Source: Porphyra umbilicalis
Taxonomy: Eukaryota > Rhodophyta > Bangiophyceae > Bangiales > Bangiaceae
Assembly (NCBI GenBank): GCA_002049455.2
Contig: KV918805.1
Location: forward strand, 124,001 to 188,000
Reading direction: 5' to 3'
Length of the DNA: 64,000 bases
Positions 6,482 to 59,551 of the stretch are shown here, in pieces. A program made the translations under genes and the position numbers. The notes beneath the pieces were generated by a model. The model ran no database searches. It saw nothing but the letters and a program-made list of their open reading frames with translations, and was not told the DNA's origin. Each line of letters begins with the position of its first letter. The first letter of the stretch is position 1.

Positions 6482-8417
6482 ATGGCCCGCACGTCGCCGG
6501 CAGCGGCGCGGGAAGAGCCACCCCGGAGCGCTTTGCTCGCCCGCATCCTCCACCGCAAGCCGGCGCCCGCAGCGGCCAAGCCGACGCCGTCGGCGACCGG
6601 CAAGGCGGGCGCCACCACCGCCGGTGGCAAGGCGGGCGCCACCGCTGCCGGCGGCAAGGCGGGCACCACCGCCGGCGGCAGCAAGGCGCGCGCCACCACC
6701 GGCGGCGGCAAGGCACGCGCCACCGCTGCCGGCGGCAAGGCACGCGCCAGCGCCGCTACCGACAAGGCAGACGCGGCGGCGGCATCGCCGCCGCCGTCGC
6801 CACCGCGGTCGCCCCTGCCCCGCGCCACCACCAGCCCTGCCGTCGCGACAAAAGCGGCGGCGGCGGCCGCCGGCGACGCGTCGGCGGCCACAAAAGCCGG
6901 GGCCACCACCTTTGCCTTTACCGGCCACGTGGAGATGTCGTCCCGCCGCCCCAGCCGCGGGGGTGGCCCGGCAGAGCGGCGCGTCGCGTCGGCGGCGGCG
7001 GCCGCTTCGGCGGCGGCCACCGCCGCCGCTGCCGCTGCGGCCGGCGGCCGGGGCGGCTCCCCCGCGGGCGACACGGCCGCGCGCGCCGGCGCGTCGTCGC
7101 CGCGGGCGGCGGGATTGGGGAGCGGGGCGTCCACCTCGGCGGGGGCGGGCGGAGTCCGCCCCCGCGGTTTGTCCTCCCCGTCGGCCACGGGGGGCATGGC
7201 GGCGGCAGGGGCGGCGGGGGGGGGGGCGCCAAGCCTGTCAGCCGCTCCAGCAGCCGCTCGGCCGACGGTGGCAAGGCGACGGCGGCCGGCTCGGGGGCGG
7301 GGAGCGCCCGCTCTGGCGGCCGCACGGGCAGCCCCTCTGGTGATGGCGGCAAGGCGACGGCGGCCGGCTCGGGGGCCGGGAGCGCCCGCTCGTCTGGAAG
7401 TCGTGCCGGAAGCAGCTCGGCCGACGGCGACAAGGCGGCGGCAGCCAACTCGGGCGCGGGGAGCGCCCGCTCTAGCACCCGCACCGGCAGCCGCTCGGCC
7501 GACGGCGGCAAGGTGGCGGCCGCTGGCGCGGCGGCCGGGAGCGCCCGCTCTGGCAGCCGCGCCGGCAGCCTCACGACCGGCAGCCTCACGACCGGCGGCG
7601 GCAATGTGCCCATATCCCTCACGCGGTCGGCCCCCCGCCGCGGCGGCGGCGGCAGCGGCGGCAGCAGCGGCAGCGGCCACAGCGGCCGCAGCGACCACAG
7701 CGGCGGCGGGCACGACGGCCGCCGCTGCACCGTCGGCGGTGGCAGCAGCGGCGGCGGCGGCGGCGGCGGCGGCGCGCCCCGCCACCCGCCCGCCGGCCGC
7801 AGCGCGGCCGCCGCCGGCACGAGCCGGTCAGCGGCCGCCCGGTCGGCGGCCGCGTTGGGCGGCTTGTCGTCCCCGCCGCCGGGGCAGCTGCCGCCGCCGC
7901 CCGCCGCAGCGTCGGCGCCGTCGCTGGCGGCGGGCGCCTCAACGGCGGGCGGCACGGGCGGGGGGCGCCGCGGCGGCGCTGCGGGTCGTCGGCGGGCGGG
8001 GTCCCCCGCCGCCGCCCCGGCCCCGCCGCCGTCTGCCGGCGGGCACCCCCCGCACGCGGCGCCGGCGCCGCCGGCGCCGCCGTCCCCGCCTCCCCCCCCC
8101 CCCCCTATGGCGGGGCGCCCCCCCCCCCGCTTCGCCGCCATAGGGCCGGCGCGTCGGGGCAGGCGCCCCCCCTCCACGCGGACGGCGCGGCCGACGACGA
8201 GCTGCCGACGCTCGACGTGACGTCGTCGCCGCGCAAGTCAGACGCCGACGGCGCATCGTCCGTGGTGGCGCTCGCCGCCCCCGCCCTGCCGCCGCCGGGC
8301 ACCACGTACCGGTACGTGCGGGAGGCGCAGACGGCCACGACCAACCGGGCGGGGGACCGCACCGAGCGGTATGAGCGGGTGGAGGTGACGACGACGCGGG
8401 CGTTGCGGGCCAAGTGA
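6482..8417 (+). CDS. Ala/Gly/Ser-rich low-complexity protein with 26-residue repeats
   Basis: I do not recognise this protein. The first part (ATG 6482 to about 7215) has repeated K-AGATTAGG phrases and poly-Ala. From about 7228 a second frame continues with four imperfect 26-27-residue repeats built on SADGGKATAAGSGAGSARS (about 7228-7580). The last 66 codons, in a third frame, end with TYRYVREAQTATTNRAGDR and a stop at 8415-8417. Frame changes fall at G or C runs (7216-7226, and 8092-8105 or 8118-8128), and each continuing frame has the same high-GC codon style. The most economical reading is one gene of about 645 codons with homopolymer length problems. Low-complexity basic and Ser-rich composition suggests a disordered protein; no location is inferred. 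Confidence 0.5.
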
Positions 8418-8611
8418 GGGGAAAGGGGGAAAGGGGGGGGTGGTGCGGGCAGTGCCCGTAAAGGCGGCGCGCAAGGCGCGGCGGTCGGTGGAACAGAGGG
8501 AGGGTGCGGCGCGCACGACCGTGGGCGTCGCCCCGATTGTAGACAGTCTGCTCTGGCGCACTCGCGACACCAGTGGCGTGCCACGCCCGCCGCAAAAGAC
8601 ACGCCCGCGCC

Positions 8612-9104
8612 TTAGACCGCACACCGCCCCTTCACCGGTACGATGCGCAGGCCCGCCCGCGAGGTGCCAACCAGCACCCCACGCGTGTCCACCTGACGTT
8701 TGTGTGGCAATAGCATCCCCGCCGTCTTCCCGCCCTTCCCTCATCCGAGCGTCTCGGCCGCCGCAAACGCCCCGTCGCGCGCCTGGGGGAGAGCCGCCAC
8801 CACCCACCAATGATGGGGGCCCCGAGGTGCGGGCGCCCGCCGACGCATCGCCCGCGAACCATCCGTCGCGCTCCTCGCAACACACCGACAGCATGGCGGT
8901 GCTCCGCCCCGCGAGCTGCGCCCCGACGGCGGTCGCGGCCACCCCGAGGGCAGCTGCGCCGTCACTGGCAGCGTGCAGCGCCGTGTGCAAGTCGCCACCG
9001 ACGTCCAACAGCGACCACACGTCGAGAGGTGCGATGGAACCACAGTGAAACAACAATAATAAAGAATGCACGGTGCAGCCTGCAAACAAAACGGACCACC
9101 TCAC
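8612..9104 (-). pseudogene. Possible minus-strand coding remnant, function unknown
   Basis: The final segment reads QVDTRGVLVGTSRAGLRIVP and ends at a TAA (8612-8614), which looks protein-like. In the same frame upstream lies HHWWVVAALPQARDGAFAAA, separated from the tail by a single in-frame TGA (8741-8743). A third segment in another frame, around 8850-9060, reads DVWSLLDVGGDLHTALHAA and continues plausibly. Together these could be a decayed gene or unrecognised exons, lying just downstream of and on the same strand as the SAM-DUF202 gene. I found no family match by eye. Confidence 0.3.
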
Positions 9105-9147
9105 GTGTCAGGCATAGAGAGGCAAACATGCATCGTGCAATGAGACG

Positions 9148-10976
9148 TCACGCGATGACTGCCGGGAGGGTGAAGAAAACCTGCACACAAATCATGGTGA
9201 TGATGCAGGCAGCGACAAAGTGGAGGATGAGCTGCGAGAAGATGACGCCCGCGAGGTCCGGGTAGAACCTGTTCAACAGGGAAAAGTCAAGGTGGCCAAG
9301 GGAGTGGCAAGCAGAAACGGCGCACGGTGCCATCCGCAAGGAGAACAGAGCAGTGTGCACCAAGACCGGGGCCCACCATGAGCAAGAAAGCCCGACCATG
9401 CCACAGGCAAGCCGGTGACACACCAGCACGACGGAGCGCAGGAAAGTCAGTCATCTGCTGCGCGACATGCGCAAGCATCTGCTTTTCTCACAGCAAAGCC
9501 ATGCAGGCCTCGACGCGTGCACAAACACCGAGGGCGCCATCGCAACTCCCCAAGCCCCGACCGTTGTGGAGGTCCCCCACCCGCCGCCCCCGTCTCCATT
9601 GGCTCCTCCTCGACACTGCAAGGGGAGTGTGTCGCAGCGCCAACGTACTTGGAAGACGCCCGCTTGTCCGAGTCGAGGATGCTTGTGACCTTCAAAAACC
9701 GCCACCCTCCATACACCGCAAACAAGACGCACGCGCCGCAAAACGCCGAGCACGCGGCTAGCACAAAGCGGTACAGCACGTCCTTTTCCTCCTTGAGCTC
9801 GACAAGCGCCAGCCGCACCACCCCCGCCGCCAGGATGAGCTGCTGCACGGCCAGGCGCTGCCACGAGTGCACCGTCCGCACGTTGCTCATGTGGGTGAGC
9901 ATGCGCCCAAATTCGGGCAACGCAGAGAAGGTGCCGGTGACTAGGCCGGCGTGCGGCGTGCCGGCCGTCTCCTCCGAGTTGAGGTGGTCAATGGCGGCGA
10001 TGAGGGCGCGGCGGTGACGCAGCGGCTTGACGCCGAGCTCGTCGCGCAGGTCTTCGGTGGTGAGTGAACGGAGGATGACGCCCGACACAGCGTGGTCGAG
10101 AAAGGCCGGCGCCTGGAAATGCATAGGAACGAAGGCATACACACGGAACGACAGCGAGCATCAACAGTCCAGACACACACAAAGACGTAAAACGCAGGAA
10201 CACAGTGAGGGACACAGCGGGGCGAGTCAGAACGTTGCGAGCAAGACAGAGCGGACCGTTGCAAATCAACACCGCCAAGGTCGCAGCCCACAGCCACACT
10301 CGCCACACAGTGCACCACAGTTATCTGTTCCCCGGCCCAGCACGATGCTGGCCTAGCGTCCGCACTCGGCTCGAGCGAGGTGCGGCCACGACCATACTCC
10401 AATCCCCGCACCATCACCAACTCACTGGCACTCTCTTGTATCCCTCCTTCGACGATGCTGACCCCCCCCCCCTCCCGCCTTGCGGTTAGCGCTTCACACG
10501 TACGTATTCTGGAAACCCGAGGTCCGACACCCACGCCACAACCTCTGACGGCGTGTCCAACGCCGGTAGCTGCACCATCCCCACCCCCCCCTTGGGGTCC
10601 CCGACACTATCATGGGAGCTCCCGCTGTTCATTCCCCCGCCGCCGCGTGGCGACAGCGCCGACGGCGGCGGCCACCACCACGGGCGCGTGCCGCCGTTGA
10701 CGGCCGCCGCCGCGCCGTCGCCGCCGAGCAGCGGCGTGCGCTCGGTGGCGCGCCGCCACGGCGACCACTCGCCCGCAGACGTGGACGGCGAGGCGGCGAC
10801 CGGGAGGGTGAGGTAGAGCGGACGATGCCGAGGGCGCCACGGGACGGCTGGCGGCGGCGGCGACGGCGTGCGGGAGCGGGAGGGGGGGGGGGGGGAGCAC
10901 CGCGCGACCCGGGCGGCGGGGCAATGGGGCTGCCCGAGCGCCGCGCGGCAGGCCAGGGCGCCCACCGGGCGGCCAT
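9148..10976 (-). CDS. SAM-domain DUF202 membrane protein, three exons
   Basis: Exon 1 ends at 10504, exon 2 is 10112-9649 and exon 3 is 9268-9148. Both introns (10113-10503 and 9269-9648) begin GTACGT and end AG, and splicing keeps the frame. The exon 1/2 junction gives VSDLGFPEYAPAFLDHAVSG and runs into LTTEDLRDELGVKPLRHRRA, a textbook SAM domain. Then follow NVRTVHSWQRLA and three hydrophobic helices, the last being LILHFVAACIITMICVQVFF, matching the DUF202 (YidH/VTC-type) membrane fold. An ERTPLL phrase before the SAM domain fits an acidic dileucine sorting signal toward a vacuole or lysosome (inference). The true start is unsure: in-frame ATGs lie at 10632 and 11229, while 10976 is in another frame beyond a 14-G run (10882-10895). 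SAM domains usually mediate protein-protein assembly. Confidence 0.78.
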
Positions 10977-12492
10977 GGCAGCCGAGCCTCGAGTGTGGGG
11001 CGGACCGAGAACGCGCCCCCCCTGCCCCTCTCGCCACGCGGCCGAGCGGGGCCCCCTGCGATCTGGGTCCCTTGCGCCAGTCGCTCCGGGGCCGCAGCGG
11101 CAGGTGACGGCCCCACGTCGCCGCCGTGGGTTCCGCACACGAGCGGTCACGGTGGGCGAGAGCTGCGGGTCGGCAGACTGTGGAGGGGGGGAAGAAACGG
11201 TTGGTGGACGGGAGGAGGGGCGCCTCCAAGTGCCTCGTGACGCAGACCCTCCTCTCTCTGGCACGTCAGGTGCATGAGGACTTGAGGAAGACTTGCGAAC
11301 GTATTTACCCAAATCAACAAACAACGCGCGTCGTATCAAGTGCTAAAGACGCTCGCTTGTCACCCAACTCTGGTGTCTTGGCGTTCGTTCATTATTATCA
11401 ATATTACAGTATAATATTTTGGCCTACTCTTTCCGTTCCTGCCTTGGACACCCGGACCACACTCACGCCCGGGTCACCCGCCCCCTCCATCCGCGTCAAC
11501 CGCACAATGAGCACGCCGCTGGGCGGCACCTGTCGGCCCCCCACGACCACCGACGTGGCGGTCGCCGCCCCCGCGGCCGTCCCCACGTTGACGTACGTTA
11601 AAGCCGGTCGCGACGCGCGCGCAGGCGCCCCCCCCCGCCGCCACCGCCCGCCTCGACGTGGTCGTCGAAGTGGCGTCGGTGGGCGCCGGGTCCCCTCGGC
11701 GGCGCCCCGCCGACGCCGCCGCGCCGTCGGCGGCCGCCCCGCGCGCGCGCGCGCACGCGGCGGCGGGCGGGTGCCCACACCCCCATGCCCGCCACCCCCC
11801 GTCGTCGGGCGTTGGCCGACGCCGCCCGGGGCGCGGGGGGGCGCACGCGGGGGGACTGGCGGGCGGGCGCCCCCCCCCCCCACAGCCCCGCCGCGCCCCC
11901 CGTCCACCCCGCGGGCTGCCCGCCCCGCGCCGCGTGTCGGCGGCGTCGGCGGTGGTGGGGGCGGGGGCGACGGCGGTCCGCCGCGGCGCGCCCCCGCCCG
12001 CGCACGGCACGGCGGGCGTGCGGGGGAGCGCCGCGACGCTCCCCCGGGGGCGGCCGACGCGCCGCCCGCCGCGGCCGCCGCGACCGCCACGGCGGCGTGG
12101 CGCGCCGTGCGGCGCACGCGTGGGTGTGGGCGCCGCCGTCGGCGGCGGCAGCGGCGGCGGCGGCAGCGGCAGCGGCGGCAGAGGCGGTCTTGTTTACACT
12201 GCTGGCACTGTACGGGGCCCGGGCAGGGGGCCATCACCCACCGCCGCGGGTGGCCCCCAGCAGGGCGCCCGGCGGGCGCCCCCCCCCCCGCCGCCGAGCC
12301 CGCCCGCGCCCGCGTGCGCCGCCACGCCCCTGCGCCGCCACCCACCCCCCGCCAGCCGCAGCGGTGCCAGTCACCGCCGCCACCGCCGCCGCCGCCGCCG
12401 CGCCCCCCCCCCCCCCAACGCGCCGCCCATCCACCCCACGCCGGCGCCACTCGGGGCACCCCCCCCCCCCCCCCCCCCCCCTGTGCCCTCCC
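10977..12492. other. GC-rich region with unresolved coding signal
   Basis: Several frames are open on both strands. The minus frame ending at 11404 finishes with ALTYVNVGTAAGAATATSVV and a natural-looking tail, and could be the 3' end of an unknown minus-strand gene. On the plus strand an ATG at 11508 opens MSTPLGGTCRPPTTTDVAVA and meets GTACGT at 11595, the donor form used elsewhere here. Around 12150-12230 a plus reading gives a poly-Ala stretch then EAVLFTLLALYGARAGG. I could not join these into a gene. Confidence 0.3.
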
Positions 12493-12751
12493 TCACAAAC
12501 AGTACCGCGCGCGCTCGACGGAGAAGAGGACCGCGTCGGCCTCGGCCGCCGCGTCCGCCCCCCACACCCGCCCCGTGTGGCCGACGACGGCCGCCACTTC
12601 CGCCGCCGTCGCGCCCGCCCGCACCGCGCCGCGGAGGTGGCTGACGAGCACCGGCGGCGCGCCGCCGCCGGTGAGGGCGCCAATGGCGCACAGCTCCCGC
12701 TCGCGGAGCGTCACGGCCGCCCGCCGGGGGGGGGCGCCCGCCGCACCGTCC

Positions 12752-12794
<43 letters not shown>

Positions 12795-13460
12795 CGGCGG
12801 GGGGTCGCGCGTCCGCCCCAGCAGGCGGCGGCGGCGACGGCAGCAGCGGCGGCGGCAGCGGCGCGTCGGCGCCCGCAAGGACGGTGCCGTAGGCCCAGTC
12901 GAGGGCCCACGCTTCGAGGGCGGGGGAAAAGGCGGCGAGGCGCGCCCGCACGCGCGCGCCCGACCGCCCGTAGACGGCGTCAAACACCGCCTCCCCCGCC
13001 GCCCGTGGCGAGGGTGGGCCGCCGCCGCCGCCGCCGCCGCGCCCGACGGCGCCGCCGCCGCCGTCGCCCGCGTCGTAGACGCCCGTCGACGCGGCGGCGG
13101 CGGCGGCGGCGGCGGCGGCCGCGTCGCCGCTGCGCGCGGCGGCGGCGGCGGCGGCGGCCGCGTCGCCGCTGCGCGCGGCGGCGGCGGGGGGCGTCAGCCC
13201 CGCCTGCTGCACCGCCGCGGCGGCGTGGAGGACGCGGGGAAAGCCGCAAAAGACGACGGACTGGACGAGGGCGAGCTCGTACGCGGCCGCCGCGTGGGGG
13301 GGGGGACCGCCGCGAGCGCCCCGACGGCGGCGGCCACGTTGGTGCCGGCGGCCACGTGGCCGGCGGCGAGCGCGGCGGCGCGGAGCCAGGGGGCGAGCGT
13401 GGGGGGGGCGGGGGGGAGGCCGGCAAAGAGGGCGGTGAGGGCGGGGGTGGGGGCGGTCAT
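12493..13460 (-). CDS. Carboxymuconolactone decarboxylase (AhpD-like) family protein
   Basis: About 322 residues. ATG 13460 opens MTAPTPALTALFAGLPPAPP. After residue ~52 the frame changes at a 10-G run (13296-13305) and continues with ELALVQSVVFCGFPRVLHA, the helix seen in this family (EA-IQ---Y-G-P). A poly-Ala insert follows, then VFDAVYGRSGARVRARL, then LRERELCAIGALTGGG and VSHLRGAVRAGATAAEV, which carry the family's conserved His and the GAT-EV turn. No CxxC of the AhpD peroxidase-reductase type is visible, so it is closer to the CMD/decarboxylase-like branch; substrate unknown. It ends YCL and TGA at 12495-12493. The poly-Ala insertion is a lineage feature shared with neighbouring genes. 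Confidence 0.72.
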
Positions 13461-26146: not shown

Positions 26147-27786
26147 ATGACATCCATCATCCTTTGCGGCCACTCACCGCGACGCTTGCCGCCACCGGCG
26201 TCCGCGCGTGGCCACTACCTTCGACGTCTCCCCGGTGCTCTCGCCACACGCTGTTTGGCGCGTTTGCCCGGGGGCATGAAGCCCCACGAGGAAGAGCCGT
26301 GCCCGATTGCTGTGCTACTGTCTGAGGACGACGGCGCGGCCATTTGCGCCACTTTGCAGGCGCATGTGGCGGCGGTAATGGCGCTGCGGATGCGTGTGAG
26401 TGCGTGGCGTATCAGCCGACGTGGCCACTACCGTGGCTCCCTTCCTGGAAGTCGGCCCAACAAGCAGCGGGACTTCGATGCCGGGCTGAACAGCATTGTG
26501 TGAGATTACTTTGGAGTCGATGGGAAAGACCCTGGCTACAATGAGCACGACTTTGAGACGCGTTTCCGCGTTCCGCGTGCTGTGTTCCGGCGCGTCTATT
26601 CGGAGGTCAAGGACACCCCCTTCTTCCGGCGGCGTGTCAACGCTACGGGCCGCCCGCAGGCGCACCCTCTACAAAAGGTGGTTGCTGCCTTCCGTGTCCT
26701 CGCGTATGGGGAGGCGGCAGACCGCGCCGAAGAGTACGTGCGGCTTTCCCGTTCAACCATCCTCCTTTCGGTCAAGTGTTTGGTGGTATGCATCGTGTCT
26801 AAATGGGAGTCTACCTACCTACGGCGGCCCAACAACGCGGAGCTGCAGACGATCCTGGACCGGAACGCGGAGCGTGGCTTCCCCGGGTGCATGGGCTCGC
26901 TTGATTGCAGCCACTGGGCGTGGCAACAGTGTCCCAGAGGTATGGCGGGCAGCTACCAGACCCGAAAGGGCTCGCGCGGCATCGTTGTGGAGGCTGTGTG
27001 CGACGAGGACCTGTGGATTTGGCACCTGTGTACTGGCGCACCTGGGAGCCTCAACGACATCAACGTGATGCACCAGTCCTCCCTCTACCTCGACGTGACG
27101 GCAGGCCTGTGGCCCCCTCGCAACCAGACCTACACGCTGAGCGGGACAAGTCGCACGCCGCCGTACTACCTGGTGGATGGCATTTACCCACGATATGCCT
27201 TCCTCATGTCCTCGCACCCCATGCCCCCCACTGAGGAGCAAAAGGTCTTTAACGGCCTGCAGGAGGCGGTCCGCAAGGACGTGGAGCGCCTGTTTGGTGT
27301 CCTGACGCAACGCTTCCACATCGCGCTCCACCCTGGGCGCTATCGGTCGGTTAAGATGGTCCTTACCTTCAAGGAGATCTGTACACTGCAGGACATGTGT
27401 GTTGAGAGCCGCCGCGAGGGCTTTTTGAGCCGCCGCAAACGCGCAGAGGGACCTAACGGGGGGGGGGTGCTAATGCTGTGGATGGTGACGACGAGGGATC
27501 TGGGAGTGAGGACGGAAACGGACCTGATGGTGGGCCAGCTGGCGGTGGCGGCAGTGGACATGGTGGTGGGGAGGACGTCGGGGCGGGTGCTGCCGCCGGG
27601 AGAGCTGCACCTGACGGCGCACACGCCGGCGCCAACGCGCTCCTCCTCATTGACCCTGTCAAGCAGCCGCCAGCGGGCGGCATGGCCGCCGTCTTTGACG
27701 CCTGGGGCGGGACTCGCAATGTTGCTGAGCACGAGCAACTTCGTGCTGACCTCACCGCACATGTGTGGAACGACCGTGGTGACTAA
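26147..27786 (+). pseudogene. PIF/Harbinger (plant-type HARBI1-like) transposase
   Basis: The frame starts near 26147 and reads RPNKQRDFDAGLNSIV, then an in-frame TGA (26501-26503), then DYFGVDGKDPGYNEHDFETR without a frame change. The rest is very well preserved: MGSLDCSHWAWQQCP (first Asp near 26902), DLWIWHLCTGAPGSLNDINV, YYLVDGIYPRYAFLMS (second Asp) and RKDVERLFGVLTQRF (the Glu). These are the DDE residues of plant-type PIF transposases. At a 10-G run (27458-27467) the frame moves and continues to LRADLTAHVWNDRGD and TGA at 27784-27786, a C-terminus usual for the family. Its product would excise and reinsert the element together with the Myb protein. Confidence 0.93.
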
Positions 27787-27807
27787 TTGGCCCCGTACCT
27801 TTCGTAG

Positions 27808-27868
27808 AGCGACAGCAGGTGACATACAACGTTTTTTTTTTCCCCGTTGGGCAGGGTTTTTTTTTTCC
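27808..27868 (+). repeat. Left arm of internal inverted repeat in the Harbinger element
   Basis: The segment ending CCCCGTTGGGCAGGG and a T run is the inverse of 28820-28877. It begins about 20 bp after the transposase stop codon. Both arms combine poly-T/poly-A tracts with a GGGCAGGG core. Confidence 0.75.
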
Positions 27869-28182
27869 TTTATTTTGTTGTCTATTGCACGTGAACCAGA
27901 GGGCCAAAGTCGATAGCGCCACGGTGAGAGCCGGCGTGACTGGCCGAGCGCGCAGCTGGAGCTCAGCTTTGTTGGGGGCCTGTGGGGACACCCCGTCGCC
28001 CTCGCTGCCCGCGCGGCCGCCAAGCCGCCGCGTCCACAGTGTCGACGCCGCGTCGTCGCCTCGTCTCCCGCCGCGTGGCCACCAGCGGCAGGCCCGCTGC
28101 ACGCATCGCGCCATGCGCGATACGGAGAGACAGCCGCCGGTCAGAGGCGACCTCGCCAGCGCCGGCGCAACGCCGCGCCCGG

Positions 28183-33682: not shown

Positions 33683-35326
33683 ATGGGCAAGAAGGACAAG
33701 AAGAAGCAGGGCCTCGGCGCCGCCAAGACCGCCGCCAAAGCGGCCAAGAAGGAGGAAAAAGCCGCCGCCGCCGCCCTCAAAGCGTCGGGCGAGGACGACG
33801 TGGAGGCCATCCTCGCCGACATCCTCGCCGCCGAAGCCGCCGCCGTCGCCGTCACCGAAGCCGTTGCCGTCGAGCCGCCGACGCCCCGCGTCAATGGCAC
33901 CTTTGTGCCGCACCCGTCGCGGGATGGGGAGCTGCTGCTCTTTGGCGGCGAGCACTTTGACGGCGCCCGCACGACCTTTTATTCCGACACGTACACGTAC
34001 GCGCCCGCCAAGGGCGTCTGGTCCCTGTACACGAGCCCGACGCGGCCGCCGCCGCGGTCGGCGGCGGCCGCCGCCGCCTACCGCGGGCACCTCTACCTGT
34101 TTGGTGGGGAGTTTGCGTCGCCGTCGGGCGGCCAGTTTCACCACTTTAAGGACCTGTGGCGGCTCGACGGGGCGAGCATGGCGTGGGAGAAGCTCGAGCT
34201 GCGGGGCGGGCCGACCGCCCGTTCGGGCCACCGGCTGGCCGTCTCCAAGGGGCGGCTGCTGGTGTTTGGCGGCTTTTACGACACCCTCCGAGAGACGCGC
34301 TACATGAACGACTTGCACGTGCTCGACTTGACGGCGGACGAGCTGGTGTGGTCCACCCCGCCAACGACGCCGACCGACGTGGTGCCGTCCCCGCGGTCGG
34401 GCTTCCAGTGGGTCGTCGACGACGCAGACGGCTCGGCGGTGCTGTATGGCGGCTTTTGCAAAGCGCCGCCGCCCAAAAAATCCGGCCGCGCCCACGCCGT
34501 CGGCAAGGACAAAGCGGCCAAGGCGTCCAAGGGCGGCGCCGCCATCGCCGCCGCCATGGCCGCCGAGGAAGCCTATGACGGCCGCGGCACGATCATGACC
34601 GACGCCTTTCGCCTGCGGCCGGATACGCTCAAGTGGGGGCGGGTGAAGAAGGGCGGCTACGCGCCCGCCGCGCGCGCCGGCTTTGGCCTCCACGCGTACA
34701 AGCGGCTGGCCGTCCTCTTTGGCGGCGTCGAAGACGAGGAGGGGGAGGAGGAGCTCGTCAGCCGCTTCCACGCCGACCTGTTTGCGCTCAACTTGGACCG
34801 CGGCAAGTGGCACCCGCTGACGCTGCGGCCGCCAAAGTCGGCCAAGGCCGCGGCGGCGGCGGCGGCGCGGCGCAAGCGCCGCAAGGGCCGCCGCAAGGGG
34901 GGGGGGGGGGGGGGGGGGGGGACGCTGCAAAGAGTGGTGGCGGCGACGACGCGGGCGGCGTGGATCGGGAGGGCGGCGGCGACGGCGACGGTGACGCTGA
35001 CGGCGGCGGCGGCGGCGATGGAGGCGGCGGTGGCGGCGGCAGAGGCGGCAGCCATGACGACGACGACGATTCCTCGTCCTCCTCCTCTGACGAGGAGCCC
35101 GAGGAGGAGCCCCCCGCCCCCTGCGGCCGCTTCAACGCCGGCACCGCCATCCTCGGGAGCACCCTGTACGTGTATGGGGGGCTCGTCGAAAAGGGCGACG
35201 TGGAAGTGACGCTCGACGACGTGTGGTCGGTCGACTTGGCGCGCCTCCACGGGTGGACGTGCGTGCAGCCGCTCTCCGCGGCGGCGTCGGCGTGGAACGC
35301 GTCCGACTCTGAGGGCGACGGCGGCA

Positions 35327-36840: not shown

Positions 36841-37595
36841 TCACAGGTCGTCGGCGGCTTTGCGCGCGCGAAAGGCGGTTGCGCGGAGCACGTCTGCCTC
36901 GGCGCGGACGCGCTCTGCGAGCCCGCGCGCCGCCTCGGCGGCGCCCCGCTCCGCCGCCGCGCCCGCGCGCGACGCTTCCGCCCACGCGCGGATGCTCGCC
37001 GCGAGGGCGCGTTGCACCTCCCCGACCGCCCGCCCGATTTCCGCTTCCGCGCGCGCCCGCTCCGCCGCCGCCCCCGTCGGCGCCGCCGCCGCCACGGCGC
37101 GGCCGGCCGCCGCCACCGCGTCGCGGGTGGCGGTTGCGAGCGCCCCCGCGCCGCCGCCGCCGCCCGCCAACGTCCAGTCGGGGACGGCGGCGGCGCGGAG
37201 GGGGACGGCGGTGAGGGCGGCGCCGACGGCGGCGGCGCCGCCGCCGCCGTTGCGCAGCGCGTCGGCCGACGCGCGGGTGCGGTCGGCGGCGGCGCGGACG
37301 ACCTCTGCTTGCGCGCGCGCGGCGGCGGCGGCGGCGCGGGCGGTTTCGGCCTTGGCGCGGGCGCCTTCGGCGGTGCCGCGGGCGGCTTCCGCGCGGGAGC
37401 GGACGAGCGAGGCAAAGGCGCGGCGGATCTCCGCGCGGCCCCGCTGCACCTCCTCCACGGCGCGCGCGAGCTCGTCGAGGAGGGGGGGGGGGGGGGGGAC
37501 GCCGCGGCCGCCGCCGCCGTCGACGGTGCCACCGCCGTGACGAGCGCGAGGAGGAAGAGGAGGAGGGCGGGGAGGGCGCGGCGGCCGCCCGCCAT
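36841..37595 (-). CDS. Secreted Ala-rich amphipathic alpha-helical protein
   Basis: About 251 residues. ATG 37595 opens a clear signal peptide (MAGGRRALPALLLFLLALVT, then AVAPSTAAAAA). At a 17-G run (37482-37498) the frame changes to LLDELARAVEEVQRGRAEIR. The rest is almost wholly Ala/Arg/Glu heptad-like helix, for example ERARAEAEIGRAVGEVQRAL and RVRAEADVLRATAFRARKAA, ending DDL at TGA 36843-36841. The long repeated amphipathic helix resembles apolipoprotein-, LEA- or S-layer-like structural proteins in composition only. It should enter the secretory pathway or, in an alga, possibly a plastid. No family is recognised. Confidence 0.62.
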
Positions 37596-40986: not shown

Positions 40987-43900
40987 ATGGCGCAAGCGCC
41001 ACATTTTGGTATTCCCCCGGGGGGCGTGCGGCCGCCCCTACGGCCCCTGGCGCAAGGTGCGGGATCGGCCGCGGCGGCGCGACCGGCGGCGCTGCACCAC
41101 GGCATGCCGGACATGCCGAGCGTGCAGTATGCAACATTGCAACAGCGGCAGATGCAGCAGCATGGGCACGTGCAGCAGCAGCAGCTGCTCGCTCAGCAGC
41201 AGGCGGCGCAGGTGCAGGCGCAGCAGCAGCAGCAGCAACAACTGCAGCAGCAGGCGCAGGCGCAGGCGCAAGCACAGCGCATGCAGCACCTTCACCAGCA
41301 GCAGATGCAGCAGCAATCGCAGCAGGCTCAAGCACAGTCCCAGCAGGCGGCACAAGCCCAGCGGGGCTCGCTCGGTCTCGCGGCTCACCCGTCGCAAGCC
41401 GCGCAACAAGCGCAGCAGCTGCAGCACCAAGCTCAACACGCGCAAGCAGCGGTGGCGGCGCAACACTCGCAGCAGCTGGCGCATGTGCAGGCGCAGCACG
41501 CGGCGCAGCAGTCGGTGCAAGTGCAACAGGCGCAGGCGCACGCGGTCGCGCAGCAGCAGCACGCGGCGCAGCTGCACGAGGCGGCCTATGCGGAACAGCA
41601 GCAAATGCTGCATGCGCACGCGCAACAACTGCAGCAGCAGCAGCAGGCGCAGCAGATGCAGCAAGCGCAGCACGCGGCAGCGGTGCGGGAAGCCAACCTG
41701 CACGCGCAGCAGGCGGCGGCGGCGTCTGCCAAGATGTCTCCTGAAGTGGCGGCCGCCGAGACGCGCCTTTCCCAGGCCAAGGAGCGCCTCTGGCTGCGCA
41801 TTGGCGGCATGCGGTCGACCTTTGGGGACGCGGACGGGGCGCTGGAGGCCTTTCAGGCAGTGTTGCAACACAACCCAGTCAACGCCACGGCGCTGACCCA
41901 AGCCGCGACGGTGTTGGCCAAGCAGGAGCAGTATGGTTTGGCGGAGAACCTGCTACAGCGGTCCCTCGCCGTGCAGCCCGCGTGTGGGGAGGCGTGGGCG
42001 GTACTGGCCCACTGCTACGTGATGACTGACCAGCTGCAGCCGGCCTATTTGGCGTACCAGAACGCGCTGTCCTACCTGCCAAACCCCAAGGACCCGACAC
42101 TGTGGTATGGTATTGGTACGTTGCGCGTTGTATTGGGCTCTATTCATTGCTTGTCGTGCTTTGTTTTGTGATGTTGTTGCTTCTTGTCCGTTGACGCCTC
42201 CACATGCTCGTGTTTGACAGGGTGTCGTTTGTTTCAGTACTGACATCTGTTCTGTGGATCCTGCGCTTATTATGTGGCTCTCCCCCCCTCCTCTGTGCTC
42301 TTTGTTTGGGATAGGCCTCTTGTACGACCGATACGGTTGGCTCAACCACGCATTGGAAGCCTTCAAGTCTGTGCTTGACATCGCCCCCGACTTTGAGCGC
42401 GCCGACGAGGTGTGTTTCTGCATGGGCATCATCTTCAAGGAGCAAGGTGACTACAAGAGCGCGCTCGAGTACTTTGATCGAGTCGTTGCGGCTGCATCAC
42501 CGCCACCGCCGCTAAGCAGCGCCGACGCGCTTTACCAGATTGGGCTGGTGCACGACCTGACGGGCGACAAGCCGACGGCCGAAGCTACTTTCCGCCGGGC
42601 GCTGGAGGCCAACCCCTCGCACGCGAAGTCTCTTAATCAGCTCGCCTGGTTGAGGCATCTTGCTGGGGACGTGGCGGAGGCGTTGGAGCTGCTACACCGG
42701 TCGGTGGAGGTGGACGGCAACGACGGTCAGGTTTGGTATCTCCTCGGCCGCGTCCGCATGACCCGTCGCGAGTACCGAGAGGCGCACGAGGCCTATCAAA
42801 AGGCCGTCTTCAGCGACAGCCGCAACCATGTGTACTGGTGCTCGATTGGCGTGCTCTACTTCCAGATGGGGCAACACAAGGACGCGCTTGACGCCTACAC
42901 GCGAGCCATACGCATCACCCCGAACGTTGGAGACGTATGGCTGGCGCTGGGCCGTTTGTACGAAACATGCCACCAGCCCAACGATGCGCTGGACGCGTAT
43001 GGCCGCGCCTTGGACTTGTCGCCGGGCGACACGGCCATCAGCACGCGGCTGGACCTCATCCGGAACTACATGGAAACTGGCGGTCCCCCGCCGGCGTTGC
43101 CCGACCCGCCTGCGGACGGACCGTTGGCAATGTCGGCCATGATGGCCGCGCGCACGGCGGTTGCATTTGGCCCAGGCGGTGGTCCTGTGCCTGGGGCTGC
43201 CGTGGGTGGTGTGCCTGCGCCGGCCGCCGGCTTTGGTGCGCTGATGCAGTCGCAGGCAGCGTCAACACAGGCCGACCTGGCCCCCGTGCAGGCCCTTGTG
43301 GGCCGGTCGGACGGGCCAGCGACCGCTGGCGGGGCCGACCAGGGTGATGATAGCGACCGCGATGCCGAGCACCAGGCTCCTGCTTTGCGCCCCTTGGGTC
43401 GCCAAGACCTGTCCCGTAGCGGCTCCCTTCACGCCGCGGGTGATCGCGGATCGGCGTCGGCCAACGTGCAACAGCGCGGACCTGTGTCGGCAGTGGGCGA
43501 GGATTCGGATGTTGTTCCGGTGGCTGTCAACCGTCACCCACCGTTTGCTCTTGGGTCCACTGGGCCCCAGAACGACCATGGGCCTCCACCTGGGCCGATG
43601 CAGCGTCGAGAGGTTCCGCCACCTCACGGGATGCAGGCGTTGCTGTCGCCGATGGGTCGGGAGCACCGGCGACCAGAACGGCAAGAGCCGTCTCGACCGG
43701 ACGCCTCGGCTGCGGAGAAGTCTTTCCGTGGCTCCGATGTGGACGGTCGGGGGGCGCGGGCACCGGACGGACGGCGGCGGCCAGAGTCGATGGTCGATGC
43801 CAATGCTGAAAACCAAGAGCGGCTGCCGAGCCTGGCCGGCTCCAAGCGGGGATCCCGGTCGGACCTGCGTGACAGGACGGTGCCGCCGCCGCCAAGCCAA

Positions 43901-52010: not shown

Positions 52011-53203
52011 TCACTTGCCCCGGCCTTGACCGCCCACCACAGCCGACGCGTCTGCCGTCGAGGCGGCTGGCGTGGCGCCCGCCGCCGCCGCCGCCGCCTG
52101 CTCCTTGGCCGCCTTGGCCGCCTCCCGCTCCGCGCGGCGCGCGGCGCGCCACGCCCACGGCTTGTCAAAGCCGTCCTCCTTGACCCACACGCCCACGTGC
52201 GCCGCGTGGGCGGCCGCCTCCTCCTTGACGTACCGCTTGGAGTAGTCGACGTAGGCGAGGGCGTGGCCCTGCGACACCATCCACCCGTTGAGGTCGACGA
52301 CGCCGGGCTGGCCCGCCTCGGGCACCCCGCCGCCGCCGCCGCCGCCGTCGGCGGCGCCAGTGACGGCCGCCGGCGGCGCGGGCGCCGCCGCGGGCGCGGG
52401 CGCGCCCTTGGCCACGGGCGGCGGCCCGGCAGTGGCGACGGCCGTGGGCGGTGGCGACGGCGCCGCGGCGCCCTTGACAGGCGGCGCCCCCACCCCCGCC
52501 CCCACCCCCGCCCCCGCCCCCGCCCCCGCCCCCGCCCCCGCCGCACCGGTCGACGACGCAACGGCGGCGGCGCCGCCCTCCTGCACGACACAAATGCCGA
52601 CAAAGCGGCCGTAGCGGTCCCGCGCGCGGCCCGCACACGTGACCGGGCGGGCCCCAATCTTTGCCACCAGCGCCTCCTTGGCCGCCACCCCACACGCGTA
52701 CGCCGTGCCGCCCGCCCCGTTGCACTGCTGCGCCGTCTCGGGCGCGTCAATGCCGAGCAACCGCACCCGCGTTTGCCCAATGACGAGCGTGTCCCCGTCC
52801 ACAACGCGCGCGGCGCCGGCCACGTGCTCGACGGGCGCGGGGGCGCGCCGGCGCGGCGCCGTCGACGTGCCGCCGCCGCCGCCACCGCCGCCGTCTGCCG
52901 CCGCGTCGGGGGGGGACGGCCGCACGGGGGGGGGAGCAGCGCCGGCACGCCGCCGCCGCCCGCGCCCGCCTCGGCCGCGCCCGTCAGCGTCGGGGCGGCG
53001 GCGGCCGCCGGCGCCGCCGCCGCCGCCGGGCGTGCCGCTGCCGCCGCGGGCACCGGCGACGCGTCGGCGGCGGCGGTTGCCGCGGCGGTGGTGGCGGCGG
53101 TCGCCGCCGCCGCCGCCGCCGCCGTGGGCGCCGCCGCCGTGGCGGGCGCCGCGGCCGCCGCCGGACCGGCGGTGGCCGCCCAGAGGAGGAGCCCCGCCGC
53201 AAG

Positions 53204-53258
<55 letters not shown>

Positions 53259-53554
53259 GCCGGGGGGGCGCCCGCCCGCCCGCCGACGGCGGCGGGCGCG
53301 CCCGCCGCCGCGGGGGCGCGGGGGGGGGGGCGCCCGCCCGCGGCGGCGGCCATGCGCGCCGGCGGCGGCGGCGGCGGGCGCGCCGGTCGGCGGCACGGGG
53401 GGAGGCGGCGGCGGCCGGCGGCGGCGGCGGCGGTCGTGAGGGGCACACCCGCGGGTAGACGGGTGAGCGCGGGGGGGGCCACCCACCCGAGCGCCGCCGG
53501 CGCCGGCGCCGACGCCGACGCCGGCGCCGACAGGGCGGCCGGGGGTGCCGCCAT
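52011..53554 (-). CDS. Staphylococcal-nuclease-domain (SNase/thermonuclease) protein
   Basis: About 514 residues. The N-terminal part, from ATG 53554, is Ala/Pro-rich with one hydrophobic segment (TLAAGLLLWAATAGP), a possible membrane anchor or targeting signal. After a frame change at an 8- or 9-G run (52908-52915 or 52926-52934) comes the SNase fold: RVVDGDTLVI, TRVRLLGIDAPETAQQC, YACGVAAKEALVAKIG and DRYGRFVGICVV. The Asp, Arg, Asp, Glu and Arg that correspond to D21, R35, D40, E43 and R87 of staphylococcal nuclease are all present, so Ca-dependent nuclease activity is likely. The domain is split by an ~85-residue Ala/Pro/Gly insert, then resumes LNGWMVSQGHALAYVDYSKR and AAHVGVWVKEDGFDKPWAWR. 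Plant and cyanobacterial SNases share the Q-C---YACG feature. Stop at 52013-52011. Confidence 0.88.
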
Positions 53555-53901
53555 GGCCGGCCGGTCCGGTCGGGGCGGGCGGCGGGACGGGGACTTGTGG
53601 AGGGGCACGGCGCAAGTCGACGAGGCGGCGACTCGACGCGCGTCGGGCGGGGGGGGTGGATTGCAACAAGGCAGGGCGCGCGAGGGACGGACGCCAACGA
53701 GGGAGCCGGCCGGGAAGAGGAGGGGACACACCGCGGCGCGCGGCGGCCGCACCTCGCCGCACCCCGGGGGCGGCTCGGAGGGACGTTTGACCGCACCCCT
53801 GCCGGTGGCCCTCGAAAAATCTGCGACAGGGTTTGTCTCAACACACGGGGGAGAACCCTGCGCCACACGCAATCACGGGGCGGTGGGACCGTCCCCAATT
53901 G

Positions 53902-53936
53902 CCATGATCGTCGGCCCGGCAGGAATCTCCATCGAG
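53902..53936 (+). repeat. Left member of CATCGA-associated inverted repeat
   Basis: CCATGATCGTCGGCCCGGCA and the following CATCGAG are matched in inverse orientation at 55514-55551. Both members border tracts with many copies of TCGATGG/CATCGA (53935-54020 here). They may be the two ends of a 1.65-kb non-autonomous element. Confidence 0.55.
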
Positions 53937-55513
53937 AAGGATTCTCGATGGGGCTTCGATGGGCCTTGAGAACCCCATCGAGGCATGCTTTCGATGGATC
54001 TTCGATGGACCTTCGATGACTGTACGCCGAGGAAGCCGGCTCGGAAGCTCCAGTCTCATAATTCGTTGCTCGTAACGGTCGCCAAAAAAGGCTTGTCCAA
54101 TAGCGTGAGTGTTCTATGCATGAGTTGAACGCTAAAACTATTTGACCAGGGCGATTGTATTGTGTACTTAAGATCGGTCGAGCGTGATTGCAATTAGACA
54201 GAGAGAGGGCATTCCCCGACAGCACGGCACCACCCGACCCCGGCACGCCCTCCCGACCCCGGCACGCCCTCCCGATACCGTTGCCTGCGCCACGCCACGG
54301 GGCGGGAATGCTCCCCCGGCCGCTCTGTCACCGGGGTCTGCGACCACCCCCGCGCGCTTCTTCGCCCCAGCTACGCCGGCGGCAGGTTGCCAGGCGATAC
54401 GGCGGCGGTGGTCGGGCTGCCGTCGCCGCTACGCCGCATGGCGCCCCGTTCGTGGAAACGGTCCGCCCGTCGAGAGACCCCTACCCGCCCGATACGCTCC
54501 CCGCGAAGACGGCTTGCGAGCCCGTCGCCGACGGCGACAGCAAAAGACGAGGGCCGGCGCGGCTGCCGACGAGGGGGCGGACGCGCCACCGCCGCCGCCC
54601 GCCGGACCGGACAGGTGCCACAAACGGTAGCGCACAAGCACACTAACACCCGCACCCCCCTTCCCCCCCACGTCGAGCGTGTGGCGGCTGCGGTGCTATG
54701 CCGCCGCCTGGCGGGAGTCCCACCTCGACCGCGCCACCGCTGCACGGACCACCGGCACGTCGGACGGGAGAAATGCCTTGAGGGCGCGCGCCCATGCCAA
54801 TGACGCGGTTGTCGGCCATGGCGTGCACCGGCGGGGAGGTGGCGGGGCACCCCGCCGCCGCACACGCCCGGGGGGGAAAGGGAAGCTCCTCCCGCCCGAG
54901 TCCTTCGCCGCCACCGACGGGGGCGGCGGCGACCGCTCGGGTGGAGACGGTGTGGGTGGTGGGGGACACGGCGCCCCAGGGGCCGGGCCGCCCCTTAGCA
55001 TGCCCGCCCGGCAGGGCCAAAGACGCGCAAGCAGAGACTGCCCGCTACAGTGTAAAACCGAGCCTTGCTGGCGGCCATCTCTTCGCGAGCGATTCTCAGT
55101 CATCTAAGTCACGACGGTTCGCACTTGCGGCCTCGCTCGTTACCTTACAACGTAAATCAAAGACCTCGAGCAGGTAAGCTCGTCGTGGATACCGCACCCT
55201 GCTGATGACATTGCCTGGGAATTCCAGTTCCAGTGCCTTCCACAGTAAGCAGCATAGCTGTCGGAGCCCTTATCCAAAGCGTACAGTAGCTGGACCAATC
55301 ATTCGCGGAAGAGCCCGTGCACAGTGCACAATGAAACGGCGGCCGAGTCTCGAAGTGTAGTCTGTCGGAAAGAAACGCACGTGGTGTTGGGTTCTTGTCA
55401 GTGGTTGTTCTGCATCGGTCGATGCACTTCGATGGAGGCTCGGATGCACCCAAAAAAGCCCATCGAATGCCGCCTTCGATGGCCGATGCAGCCCGATGCA
55501 TGCTCGATGCATG

Positions 55514-55551
55514 CTCGATGCGATTTCCTGCCGGGCCGACGATGGTGCTGG
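55514..55551 (-). repeat. Right member of CATCGA-associated inverted repeat
   Basis: CCTGCCGGGCCGACGATGG here is the inverse of the 53902-53936 phrase. The adjoining 55415-55520 tract has about ten TCGATG/CATCGA motifs, including a duplicated CATGCTCGATG. Confidence 0.55.
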
Positions 55552-56725
55552 ACAGGCTGCAAAGTGGGGTTCTGGGGAGCCCGCCGCCTGTGGGGTCCTG
55601 GACAGGCCCCACGCCCAGCTGCGTGGCCCATCATTGACAATTTCGACCACGAACAAATCGGGCCCCGCGCCCCCGCCGTCTCGACCGTTGATCTGACGAC
55701 ACGTCGCAGGGGAGCAGTTGGCCACGGCTGACGGAAACCGCACGAACCAGCCCGGCATTCGACGCGAAGGGGAGCGCCGCCGAGCTCGGGCGTCTGGTGG
55801 ATGGTCGGTTGGGGGAGCGGAGCAGACGCGCGGCAAGACCCGCGTGGGCGCATCCCGTGGGCGTGGGCGGGGGCGGCGGTCCCGGCAGGCCAGGCATCAC
55901 TCGCGGGCACCCCCCGCGTCGTCCTCGGCCCGCTACTGTACGGTGTCACTGCCCCTTGTTGTTGCTCCTCGTCGCGCCGCACTTGCTGGGGAGCTCGGGC
56001 CCACACACGCCACGGCGGCGACGTCACTGGTGGTGGCGGCGGCGGGTCTGGCGCGACGCCAACAACCACCGGGTGTTGCGCGTGGCGGCTGCCAGTCACA
56101 CGGCTCTTGGGGACCCCAGCGGTCGCACACGGGCCGCTGCGATTTTGGTGTGGGTCGCGATTCCCACGCGCGCAACCCTCCACCCACGCCGCTCCCTGGC
56201 GCTCGGCCACACCTCTTCTTGGCGCGATTGGTTTGAGCTGCCGTGCCTGCGAACGGGAGCTTTCCGGGCCCTTGGCCGCTCGGACCGCCCGCTGCAGCGG
56301 TGTTCCTTGCTGGGAGCGGTGCTGGTGCCGGCGCTGCCTGCGGGTGCCGCTGTCCCGGCGGTCGCGGCTACCCAACCGCGCCTCCGCTGGGGCACGTGTG
56401 GCTTTAGTGACTCACACGCGGCGCGCGCATTGTTGGTGTCGGCCGCTTCCGCCGTCCTCCCCAACAGGCGCCCCCGCGCGTGTGCACCGCGGCCGCCGGC
56501 GCGCCCGTGTCCCTCGGCCCGCCGATCGGCACGCCGCCGTGGGGGTGGGGGCGCACCGCTCCGCCCACGCCCCCGCTTTGGCCGGGCCCGCCGTCCCCGC
56601 CCGCCCCGCCCCAGACACTGGCGCGGTGTGGGGGTGGGTGGCCGCCTCGGCAGAGTGGGAGGGACGACGGCGACGGCGGTGGCGGCGGCGGTACCAGCGC
56701 CGGTCGTGCACACCCCCGCACGCCC

Positions 56726-57926
56726 ATGGACGGCGGTGGTCAGCGGGCGGTGGTGTATGGCTACTCGCCTATACCCGGGGCGGTCGCCGCACCTGCGGCG
56801 GCCGCCGCGCACGCCAGTGGCGGGTCGTGCATGCCCGGCGTGCCGCCGGGGAGTTGCTGCTTGAGTCTCGACTTGCCGTCACCGCCGCCAGCGGGGCGGC
56901 AGCTCCCCGTCGACGCACCCGGCGTCCTCGCCGCCGACGCTGCGGCCGCTGCGGCCGCTGCCGCTGCTGCCTCTGCGGCAGCGGCGGTGGCCGCGTCGGG
57001 CGGTGTGGCCGCCCCCCCGCCGCCCCACCACCGGCGCAGCTCGGCAGCCTCGCGACTGCCCCGACGGCGGGCCACGCAACCCCCCCCCCCCCATCTGCCC
57101 CCGCACCGGCGCGGCGTGTCCCGCCCCCTCGGAGCGCAAGCGGGAGCTCGAGCGCAAGCGGCGGGAGCTCATCTCGGAGCGGCTGCTCGAACTCGAAGCC
57201 GCCGTCGGCCTCCGCCCGTCGGACGCGGACCGCGCCGGCAAGCGCATCGACAAGGAGGCGGTGCTCAAGGCCGCCCTCGGCTTGGTGCGGGGCCACAAGG
57301 ATAGCCTCGCGGGCATGACCGCCACCGCCGACCGGGCGATACGGGAGGCTGGCGAGCTGCGGGCGGAAAAGGCGGAGCTGCGGGCGGACAAGGCGTACCT
57401 GCGGCGGGAGTTGGATACGGTGCGGGAGGAGGCGCGCCGCCTCCGCGCCGACAATATCGCGTTGTGGAAGACGTGTCGGGCGGTGGGGGCGGTGGGGAAC
57501 CCCAAACTCAGCCACCTCCTCGGGCCCGCCACGGGGGGGGCGGGGATGGTGGCCGCCGCACCGCCCGCGGGTGGCGGCGTTGGGGGCGCGTTGCGAGCGC
57601 CGGGGGGCAACGGGGGCGGCGCCGCCCCGGGGCCACTGGGCGGCGACGCTGCTGCCGCCGCCACCATCACTGGGGGCGTCGCGCCCATGGTGTCGGCCGA
57701 CGTGGCCGCTGCCGCGACGGCGGCGATTGACGGCCTGTTTACCGGCCGCTTTGGCGGCGGCGTCGGCGGTGTCCCGGGTGGCGGCGGGGGGCTCGACGAC
57801 CCAGCGGCGGCCGCCGCCGCGGCGGACGCAATCGCCCAGTTTTTTAAGGACGACATGGTGCCCGCAGAGCTGGGGCTTGATGCAAAGGACGACCACATGG
57901 GCGCCGACGTTGCGCACTGCCCATGA
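56726..57926 (+). CDS. bHLH-leucine-zipper transcription factor, ILR3/group IVc-like
   Basis: About 400 residues. ATG 56726 opens MDGGGQRAVVYGYSPIPG and a low-complexity, poly-Ala N-terminus. A 13-C run (57080-57092) breaks the frame. The continuing frame gives the bHLH: basic region KRELERKRRELISERLLELE (the Glu-Arg-x-Arg-Arg needed for E-box contact is intact), a loop, then GKRIDKEAVLKAALGLVRGH. A coiled zipper follows directly (ELRAEKAELRADKAYLRREL). The bHLH plus ELKAEKNELRDEK-like zipper is the layout of plant ILR3/bHLH104-115 (IVc) factors, which regulate iron and metal homeostasis; that role here is inference. The C-terminal half is Gly/Ala-rich and ends in an acidic segment (IAQFFKDDMVPAELGLDAKD). 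Nuclear. Confidence 0.87.
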
Positions 57927-58826
57927 GGCGCTTGGTGACGCCGAGGTGCGAGGTGGTCCGTGTTGCAAGGTGGGGGGGGTCACCCTAGGTGGGGGCGGTG
58001 CCCTCACGACACTGGTCTCCCCGCGTCGGCGCTGCAGGCGCGCCGGCGAGGGGATTCGACCCGCCGCGCGTGCGGGGGCAGAGCGGTGGGGATGCCGCGA
58101 CGCCCCTGTGCAGCGCTGGCTTTTGGAGACCACCTCGTTGCCGCCCGCATGGCGTGGCGTCGGCTCTTTGTGGCTGCCGCTTCGCCCCTGGCGGTCGCTG
58201 CCCGCCTCCGTGACGGCCTCCACACTTGAGCCACTAGGGTTGGGCAAACGACTGTTCCCGCACGGCCGATGGCGGCGACTGCTGCCGCACTTTGTGCAAC
58301 ACAATTGGTGCGCTGGTTCCTCTTCCACGTGGTCCTGCATTCGGCCGGCTGCCACCGTGGCTGCCCACATGGCAGGAAGCACGGGTTGGGCGCGGCTGGC
58401 CGACACCCGCCATGGCATGTGCGGCACTGGGCAGGCTGGCTCGCAGGCCTCGAGTTTTGGTGGTCTTGGTGTATGTGGACGTAGTGCCGGTCTAACCCTC
58501 ATTTGTTTATAATCCATCGCTGTCTGTGCAGCACCTGTGCTCCTCCCCTCAAGATCTTCCTTTGCGTGTGAGGTGTCCCTTCCCTTGCCCCATGTACACT
58601 TTTTTTGCCATTGGCTTGTTGCCGACCCGACCACGGGTAGGGGCTCGTCCGCGACGCGCGCCGCTTCTGCTTCTCGACCTGCGCTCTAGGTCGAGCAGAG
58701 GCGCGCTGCGCTCGCTCAGTGTCTGTTGCTTGGTTTCGAGGCGTCTGCCCGTCACGCCCAGAAACGACCACAGATAAAATGTGTCTTCATTTAGGGGGGC
58801 CCCCGTCTCGCGTGGTCTCGCCGCGC
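57927..58826. other. Convergent intergenic region
   Basis: This is the gap between the bHLH gene (+) and the carbonic-anhydrase-like gene (-), whose 3' ends face each other. CTAGGGTTGGGCAAACGACT at 58236 resembles a hAT-type terminal phrase, but no partner end was found. Nothing coding is supported. Confidence 0.4.
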
Positions 58827-59551
58827 CTAGGCCACCTCCCAGACCAACCCCGTCGTCGCGTCGTACATGGCACCCACAACGACCACATCCCCACATAGGC
58901 ACCCTCCCCGCAGCCCCCCCACCGTCGACCGCACCTGCGCCGCGGCGACTGCGTCGGCGACCGCGCGGCCCGCGGGCGCGTGCACGCCGGCAGCACCACC
59001 GACGGCGGCGGCGCCCCCCCCCCCCCCCCCCCCCCACGGCGGCCACGTGCGGCAGGAGCACGTGGCGGAGCATCGCCGCCCACGCCGCCGGCTCGTCTCT
59101 GTCGGCAGCCGGCTCGGCGGCGGCGGCGGCAACGGCGGCGGCCGCCACCCCGCACCCCGTGTGGCCGAGGACAACGACGAGGCGGGCGCCCGCGGCGGTC
59201 GCGGCCGCAACCGCCGCCGCGCCGCCGCCACTCGCCTCCACGTGCGGGCCGAGGGTGCGCACGTCGACGAGCTCCCCGGGGGGGGACCCAAACACCGCGT
59301 CGGCGACGGGGGCAGCGTCAGCGCACGAGATGACGACCGCGCGGGGGGGGGGATTGGGGGGCCAACGGGGGCCCACGCGGTGGGGGGGGGGGGGGGGGGA
59401 GCACCCGCCGGGACGCCGCCGCGAGCGCGTTGGCGCGGAGCAGGGACGTCCACACTGCCTCGCCCGACAAGCTAGGGGCGGGCGCAGACAGCGCAAAGAG
59501 GTCAGGGGGGGAGGCCGCGTTGCGGGCGCCGCCGCCTGGAGCGATGGTCAT
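58827..59551 (-). CDS. Divergent beta-carbonic-anhydrase-like protein
   Basis: About 241 residues in three frames joined at an 18-G run (59382-59399) and a 22-C run (59014-59035). The start MTIAPGGGARNAASPPDLFA at 59551 leads to LFALSAPAPSLSGEAVWTSL. The second part is RAVVISCADAAPVADAVFGS, GELVDVRTLGPHVEASGGGA and ARLVVVLGHTGCGVAAAAVA. The third part is GGCLCGDVVVVGAMYDATTG with a stop at 58829-58827. The order and spacing match beta-CA: CxDxR, (R-AGN), GH--CG, then the strand with V-GA-YD--TG. The zinc-binding Cys, His and Cys are retained. The Arg of the Asp-Arg dyad is replaced (CADAAP), and the usual RNAGN reads RTLGPH. Canonical CO2 hydration may therefore be weak or lost. No clear transit peptide. 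Confidence 0.8.

Follow-up and report, generated by a model that had tools for sequence, protein, structure and literature searches.

Long G/C homopolymers break the printed reading frames of Porphyra umbilicalis genes, probably through consensus length errors

Introduction

Genes that carry a homopolymer frameshift are known from Buchnera and Blochmannia, where transcription slips at poly-A tracts, a case that bears a likeness to the one examined here. Long-read errors, too, are mostly homopolymer indels, with deletions accompanying homopolymers through cautious length calling (PMC12007338). Here we analyze a stretch of 64,000 nucleotides from the red alga Porphyra umbilicalis (positions 124001-188000 of contig C45, KV918805.1; hereafter the window), in which genes repeatedly change reading frame near runs of G or C. 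A first-pass annotation, made from the sequence by itself, had listed these changes and had offered two readings, systematic errors of homopolymer length in the assembly or tracts that really vary in length. Our analysis supports assembly error better, together with some real change of length.

The assembly analyzed comprises 83.8 Mb in 665 contigs. For P. yezoensis, a relative within the Bangiales, the assembly was polished with Quiver on PacBio data (PMC7423979). In the literature searched, no paper was found that deals with homopolymer frame errors in Porphyra.

Results

Frame changes were assayed with a three-periodic codon model, first trained on open segments and then re-trained without the tested locus and without letters up to 300 nt from G/C runs of at least 7. 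Run sites were G/C runs of at least 7, merged when less than 45 nt apart, which gave 353 sites in 296.5 kb of sample, 32.5 kb of it picked for run density; 45 of these sites had enough coding signal on both flanks to be assayable, and 308 were dropped. In this leave-one-locus-out assay, the share of sites with a frame change rose with the longest run at the site, from 1/8 for a run of 7, 3/8 for 8, and 2/5 for 9 to 5/10 for runs of 10-11, 3/5 for 12-14, and 8/9 for at least 15 (Spearman 0.49, p 0.0007 over the 45 sites), as against 25/489 at run-free control positions. At runs of at least 10 the frame changed at 16 of 24 sites (Fisher p 6e-14 versus the controls), a rate that agrees with the two-thirds expected for random length modulo 3; stricter thresholds gave 13/21 and then 9/13, and earlier versions of the assay pointed in the same direction. 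Inside the window, all 7 assayable sites with runs of at least 10 change frame. Outside it, 9/17 change and 8/17 do not (Fisher p 2e-7 versus the controls); the effect is therefore not limited to the runs picked by the first-pass annotation, and long in-frame runs also exist. The annotation had named run length as the cause, and the dose-response bears this out.

The direction of the changes was also uneven. At runs of at least 8, the downstream frame looked one base short in 16 changes and one base long in 5 (p 0.027), and at runs of 7-11 the counts were 10 and 1, compared with 12 and 13 at the controls. A separate decoding model called 67 same-strand frame changes, and 23 of them lay no more than 25 nt from a run of at least 8, against an expectation of 8.7%.

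Conserved genes look broken at these runs, namely those for METTL5, for a Kelch/DUF4110 protein, and for a carbonic anhydrase. At locus L019, one frame encodes METTL5 residues 4-108, a second encodes residues 129-207, and runs of 10 and 12 separate the two parts; NPPF, which we take to be a METTL5 motif, is encoded directly behind the runs, and Pfam gave no match for the second piece. In the window, the Kelch/DUF4110 gene, a domain make-up that presumably corresponds to KLHDC4, has strong Kelch matches in frame 1 before a G25 run (34897..34921, plus strand), and both the codon assay and Pfam continue it in frame 0 behind the run, with a DUF4110 match of 47.6 bits (cut-off 27) and a weak Kelch match below the cut-off. 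The change point falls anywhere within approximately 34880-35055, and this uncertainty, like the 23/67 share of decoded changes near runs, makes the earlier wording that genes switch frame exactly at the homopolymers too strong. Copy searches among the window genes covered this gene and the transposon described below; for the Kelch/DUF4110 gene no second copy was found, the other 139 matches being partial and 67-100% identical.

The third of these genes has its run inside the beta-carbonic-anhydrase domain, on the minus strand (59014..59035; C22 as printed on the plus strand, G22 on the coding strand), where the codon assay gives a change from frame 1 to frame 2. Before the run the match covers profile positions 1-87 of 156, and it covers 1-155 of 156 when the second frame is joined by an X over the run, a read-through that scores only 2.7 bits above the first piece alone. 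The domain continues to its end directly behind the run, and the second piece (60 amino acids) was not recognized by Pfam when searched alone. At locus L034, a G8 run separates two RRM_1 matches that lie in different frames, and the second of them reaches 18.8 bits, below the cut-off of 20.7. Pfam found nothing in either tested piece of L017 or in the first piece of L016, and the last L016 piece gave a sole match below the cut-off, to an unrelated family. A GT61 match in L016 (26.4 bits, cut-off 27) was rejected as two-sided evidence, since nothing corresponding to it was seen beyond either of the two run sites that flank it.

The G10 run at 27458..27467 (plus strand), where the codon assay also detects a change, lies in a transposase gene (26504-27916; PF04827, PF13359) whose PF04827 match precedes the run and whose second part is common to other copies, and this allowed tract lengths to be compared across a family of at least 21 matches, each spanning 280 or more of the 311 query bases (40 of 55 candidates scored). 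Among the 14 copies with a pure coding tract, eight carry G11, which is the length that joins both transposase frames, four, including the window copy, carry 10, and two carry 12. Pure coding tracts thus deviate by at most one base, and a length of exactly 11 persists in copies with 22 and 24 substitutions. The remaining seven copies consist of one with G11 and an extra C, five with interrupted tracts (three of total length 11, two of 10), and one without a tract. Off-length copies were not more diverged than on-length copies (p 0.20 with one edge copy, 0.30 without; 14 copies). Two of the four copies with 10 are near-identical sisters (L046 and L047), about 20 kb apart on contig C88, and their common one-base-short tract is possibly an inherited real deletion.

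A second tract of the element, upstream of the open frame, could be compared in 18 copies; one further match, of 19 in all, does not extend to it. Nine pure copies of this 5-prime tract have lengths of 12 (five), 13 (three), and 14 (one), and nine interrupted copies have totals of 13 (seven) and 12 (two); no age effect was detected among the pure tracts (p 0.55 or 0.73; 9 copies). The pure tracts compared appear, from these alignments, to have moved little over evolutionary time. If only pure runs were miscounted, interrupted copies should be more uniform. A total of 13 at the 5-prime tract is found in 3/9 pure and 7/9 interrupted copies (p 0.15), and a total of 11 at the coding tract in 8/14 pure and 3/5 interrupted copies (p 1.0), with few copies in either comparison.

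An alignment of six copies over approximately 2,030 columns contained only two internal length differences outside homopolymers, one of 3 bases and one of 1 base, the latter common to two copies. Between 9 and 35 of 319 codons differ per copy, 66 of the 102 changed codons are nonsynonymous, and 5/6 copies keep the transposase frame open as far as the run. The off-by-one rate of the transposon copies (6/14) is similar to that of genes with runs of 10-11 (5/10), which, small as the numbers are, points to a technical rate, since accumulating mutations should make these copies, which change amino acids freely, differ more than genes under selection. Some real length change at the tracts exists as well. 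A T tract of about 10 at alignment column 2034 (L038-L043) differs by one base between copies, and one-base variation may not be limited to G/C runs. Another repeat family, at about 22820, was unsuitable as a test, because its other listed matches begin no earlier than query position 106, and mostly not before 131, which places them beside or behind the run.

Runs of this kind are abundant. The window holds 35 G/C runs of at least 10, compared with a mean of 4.0 and a maximum of 9 in 30 replicates of a local order-2 Markov model. Across the genome, G/C runs number 10,194 at a length of exactly 10 and 3,792 at exactly 13, and 15 of 20 sampled pieces contain at least one run of 10 or more. Since the transposon copies keep near-equal tract lengths despite many substitutions, thousands of long G/C tracts are probably a genuine property of this genome. 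Such tracts in or beside coding sequence are unusual and should be mutational hazards. The GC content is 64% (a 200 kb sample from 20 contigs), as compared with 64-70% in Bangiales genomes and 37-57% in other red algae (PMC7423979, PMC8752119). Chance as a cause of the frame changes is ruled out by the assay, the decoding enrichment, and the excess of runs over the Markov model.

In the 296.5 kb sample, runs of at least 10 were scarcer in coding segments than in other sequence of equal GC, up to 80% GC, a figure that is biased since the segments stop at frame changes. Ten of eleven matches to the phycobilisome family fall on contig C665, which we therefore regard as the plastid contig; it is exactly 185,000 bases long, which suggests a cut sequence. 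The plastid apcA has its best structural match in 5tjf, a Gracilaria structure.

Every run listed by the first-pass annotation is present where it was placed, and of its ten firm frame-change sites eight pass the leave-one-locus-out assay, the other two being detected by a weaker assay. The gene at 6.5-8.4 kb, for which the evidence is purely that of codon usage, has a G11 run at 7216..7226 (frame 1 before, frame 0 after) and C14 and C11 runs within 8092..8128 (frame 0 to frame 2, net over both). At both sites open frames with a natural end read on the plus strand, although the codon assay scored the minus strand best. On the minus strand, the assay gives a change from frame 2 to frame 1 at a G10 run (13296..13305; C10 on the coding strand), in a gene that matches CMD in its C-terminal part, slightly under the Pfam cut-off, and likewise from frame 2 to frame 1 at a G17 run (37482..37498; C17 on the coding strand), where a signal-peptide-like start in frame 2 is followed by an Ala/Arg/Glu-rich body in frame 1 that has no Pfam match. 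Runs of G8 and G9 within 52908..52934 (minus strand, C on the coding strand), also supported by the codon assay, have an Ala-rich N-terminal part in frame 0 on one side and an SNase domain in frame 2 on the other. The SNase match ends at profile position 59 of 107, near a repeated GGGGGC stretch (52500-52580), and the remainder of the domain was not found in the frame of the matched part.

The two sites detected by the less strict assay fell outside the assayable leave-one-locus-out rows. The first is a C13 run at 57080..57092 (plus strand), at which a three-frame view also has an Ala-rich N-terminal part in frame 1 followed in frame 2 by an HLH match under the Pfam cut-off. The second, at 59382-59399, belongs to a pair of runs, G10 and G18 (C on the coding strand), within 59343..59399 on the minus strand, upstream of the carbonic-anhydrase domain, and is seen in the codon score only. 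A G14 run at 10882..10895 (plus strand) had been proposed as a likely further case; no frame change could be demonstrated there, as neither strand gives a clear frame signal across the run. The annotation had also described a recognizable domain or signal peptide continuing beyond each run. This holds for the Kelch/DUF4110 gene and, by the read-through with X, for the carbonic anhydrase, and the second part of the transposase is common to other copies; the remaining sites have a domain on one side or codon evidence alone.

Two genes had been held up as counterexamples, having neither a long run nor a break. The longest G/C run is indeed 7 both in the CYC8-like gene and in the neighboring minus-strand gene, so that the point about run length survives. 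However, the CYC8-like gene is not free of a break. Its frame switches across about 199 nt that read as a GT-AG intron (approximately 42116..42314, plus strand; splice ends assigned by eye), flanked by TPR matches; excising the intron brings WYGIG next to LLYDRYGW. Elsewhere in the window, an open frame at 4127-4891 contains a signal-peptide-like stretch and a Kazal_2 match slightly under the Pfam cut-off.

Discussion

Our analysis favors an explanation, to which we assign a probability of about 0.82, where consensus length errors at real long tracts account for the frame changes. On this view the genome, which is very GC-rich, truly carries long G/C homopolymers by the thousand, and many sit within or next to genes, in which such a run encodes Gly or Pro in any frame. 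The consensus would miscount these runs, often by one base too few up to a length of about 11 and in either direction when longer, and each miscount would shift the printed frame and make an intact gene look broken at the run. A minority of the frame changes would be introns or real slippage in decayed copies. We infer that the miscount is technical and does not lie in the DNA itself; assembly error is preferred because conserved genes look broken, because moderate runs tend to be printed one base short, and because the transposon copies, few as they are, show no detectable increase with age.

A number of observations weigh against this explanation. The one-base-short bias is absent at runs of at least 12 (7:4, p 0.55) and is not significant at stricter thresholds (12:5, then 7:5), and the rate of 8/9 at runs of at least 15 exceeds two-thirds, though not significantly (p 0.29). 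Strong frame changes occur at short runs, at 6556-6563 of L035 (a run of 8) and 628-634 of L031 (a run of 7), where consensus error is less expected. In the separate decoding, 44 of the 67 changes lie away from runs of at least 8, and these may be decoding noise, introns, or due to other causes. Among the transposon copies, the comparison of pure with interrupted tracts decides nothing, two decayed copies have interrupted tracts that are one base short, and one copy carries an extra C. The two-thirds plateau and the copy-age test are, moreover, weaker support than we first judged.

Could the tracts themselves vary between cells or clones, by a microsatellite-like instability that leaves any printed length often out of frame? 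Long G/C tracts are abundant genome-wide, transposon copies do differ by one base, and some of the one-base changes look real, all of which would be expected if so. We nevertheless consider this unlikely. Even where a copy has accumulated 22-24 substitutions, its pure tract is no more than one base away from the commonest length, no rise with divergence was detected (in 14 and 9 copies, where a weak effect could be missed), and conserved genes would be broken in the dominant state of the sequenced individual.

Much less probable again is a scenario in which the assembly prints the true lengths, the protein is restored by minus-one slippage of the ribosome or by stutter of the RNA polymerase, and selection on frame is relaxed at long tracts. 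A downstream frame that looks one base short is also the one that such ribosomal slippage, or the insertion of one base into the RNA, would require, and relaxed selection predicts that about two-thirds of long runs are out of frame. However, the in-frame length is the commonest in the transposon family (8/14), and recoding would be needed in a large share of genes. In a study of bacterial slippage, the transcriptional homopolymer insertions of E. coli and Buchnera are all in A or T runs, with no insertion at G/C tracts, a comparison limited by the few and short G/C runs of those two genomes (PMC5574713). Splicing, with the runs lying in introns, has an apparent example in the CYC8-like gene, which changes frame across 42116-42314. 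As a general cause we judge it similarly improbable, given that introns would be expected to produce no sign bias, as against 16:5 at runs and 12:13 at controls (weaker at strict thresholds), and that homologous protein is encoded directly beside the run in both the carbonic anhydrase and METTL5.

If consensus length error is indeed the cause, a G/C run of roughly 9 or longer would make many genes of this assembly look split or truncated, and care would be needed before gene losses, pseudogenes, or odd domain combinations are claimed from it.

Set beside the known systems, the case differs from the poly-A slippage of Buchnera and Blochmannia in that the tracts are of G/C and that it is known here from DNA alone. 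Bacterial phase-variable homopolymer tracts likewise include out-of-frame G/C tracts within genes (PMC8808543). Here, in contrast, the genes affected include conserved ones of housekeeping type, and the pure tracts of diverged transposon copies vary by no more than one base. The homopolymer indels of long-read assemblies are likewise tied to homopolymers, lean toward deletion, and fragment genes (PMC12007338), and what sets this genome apart from them is that the runs are nearly all G/C and are unusually long and many.

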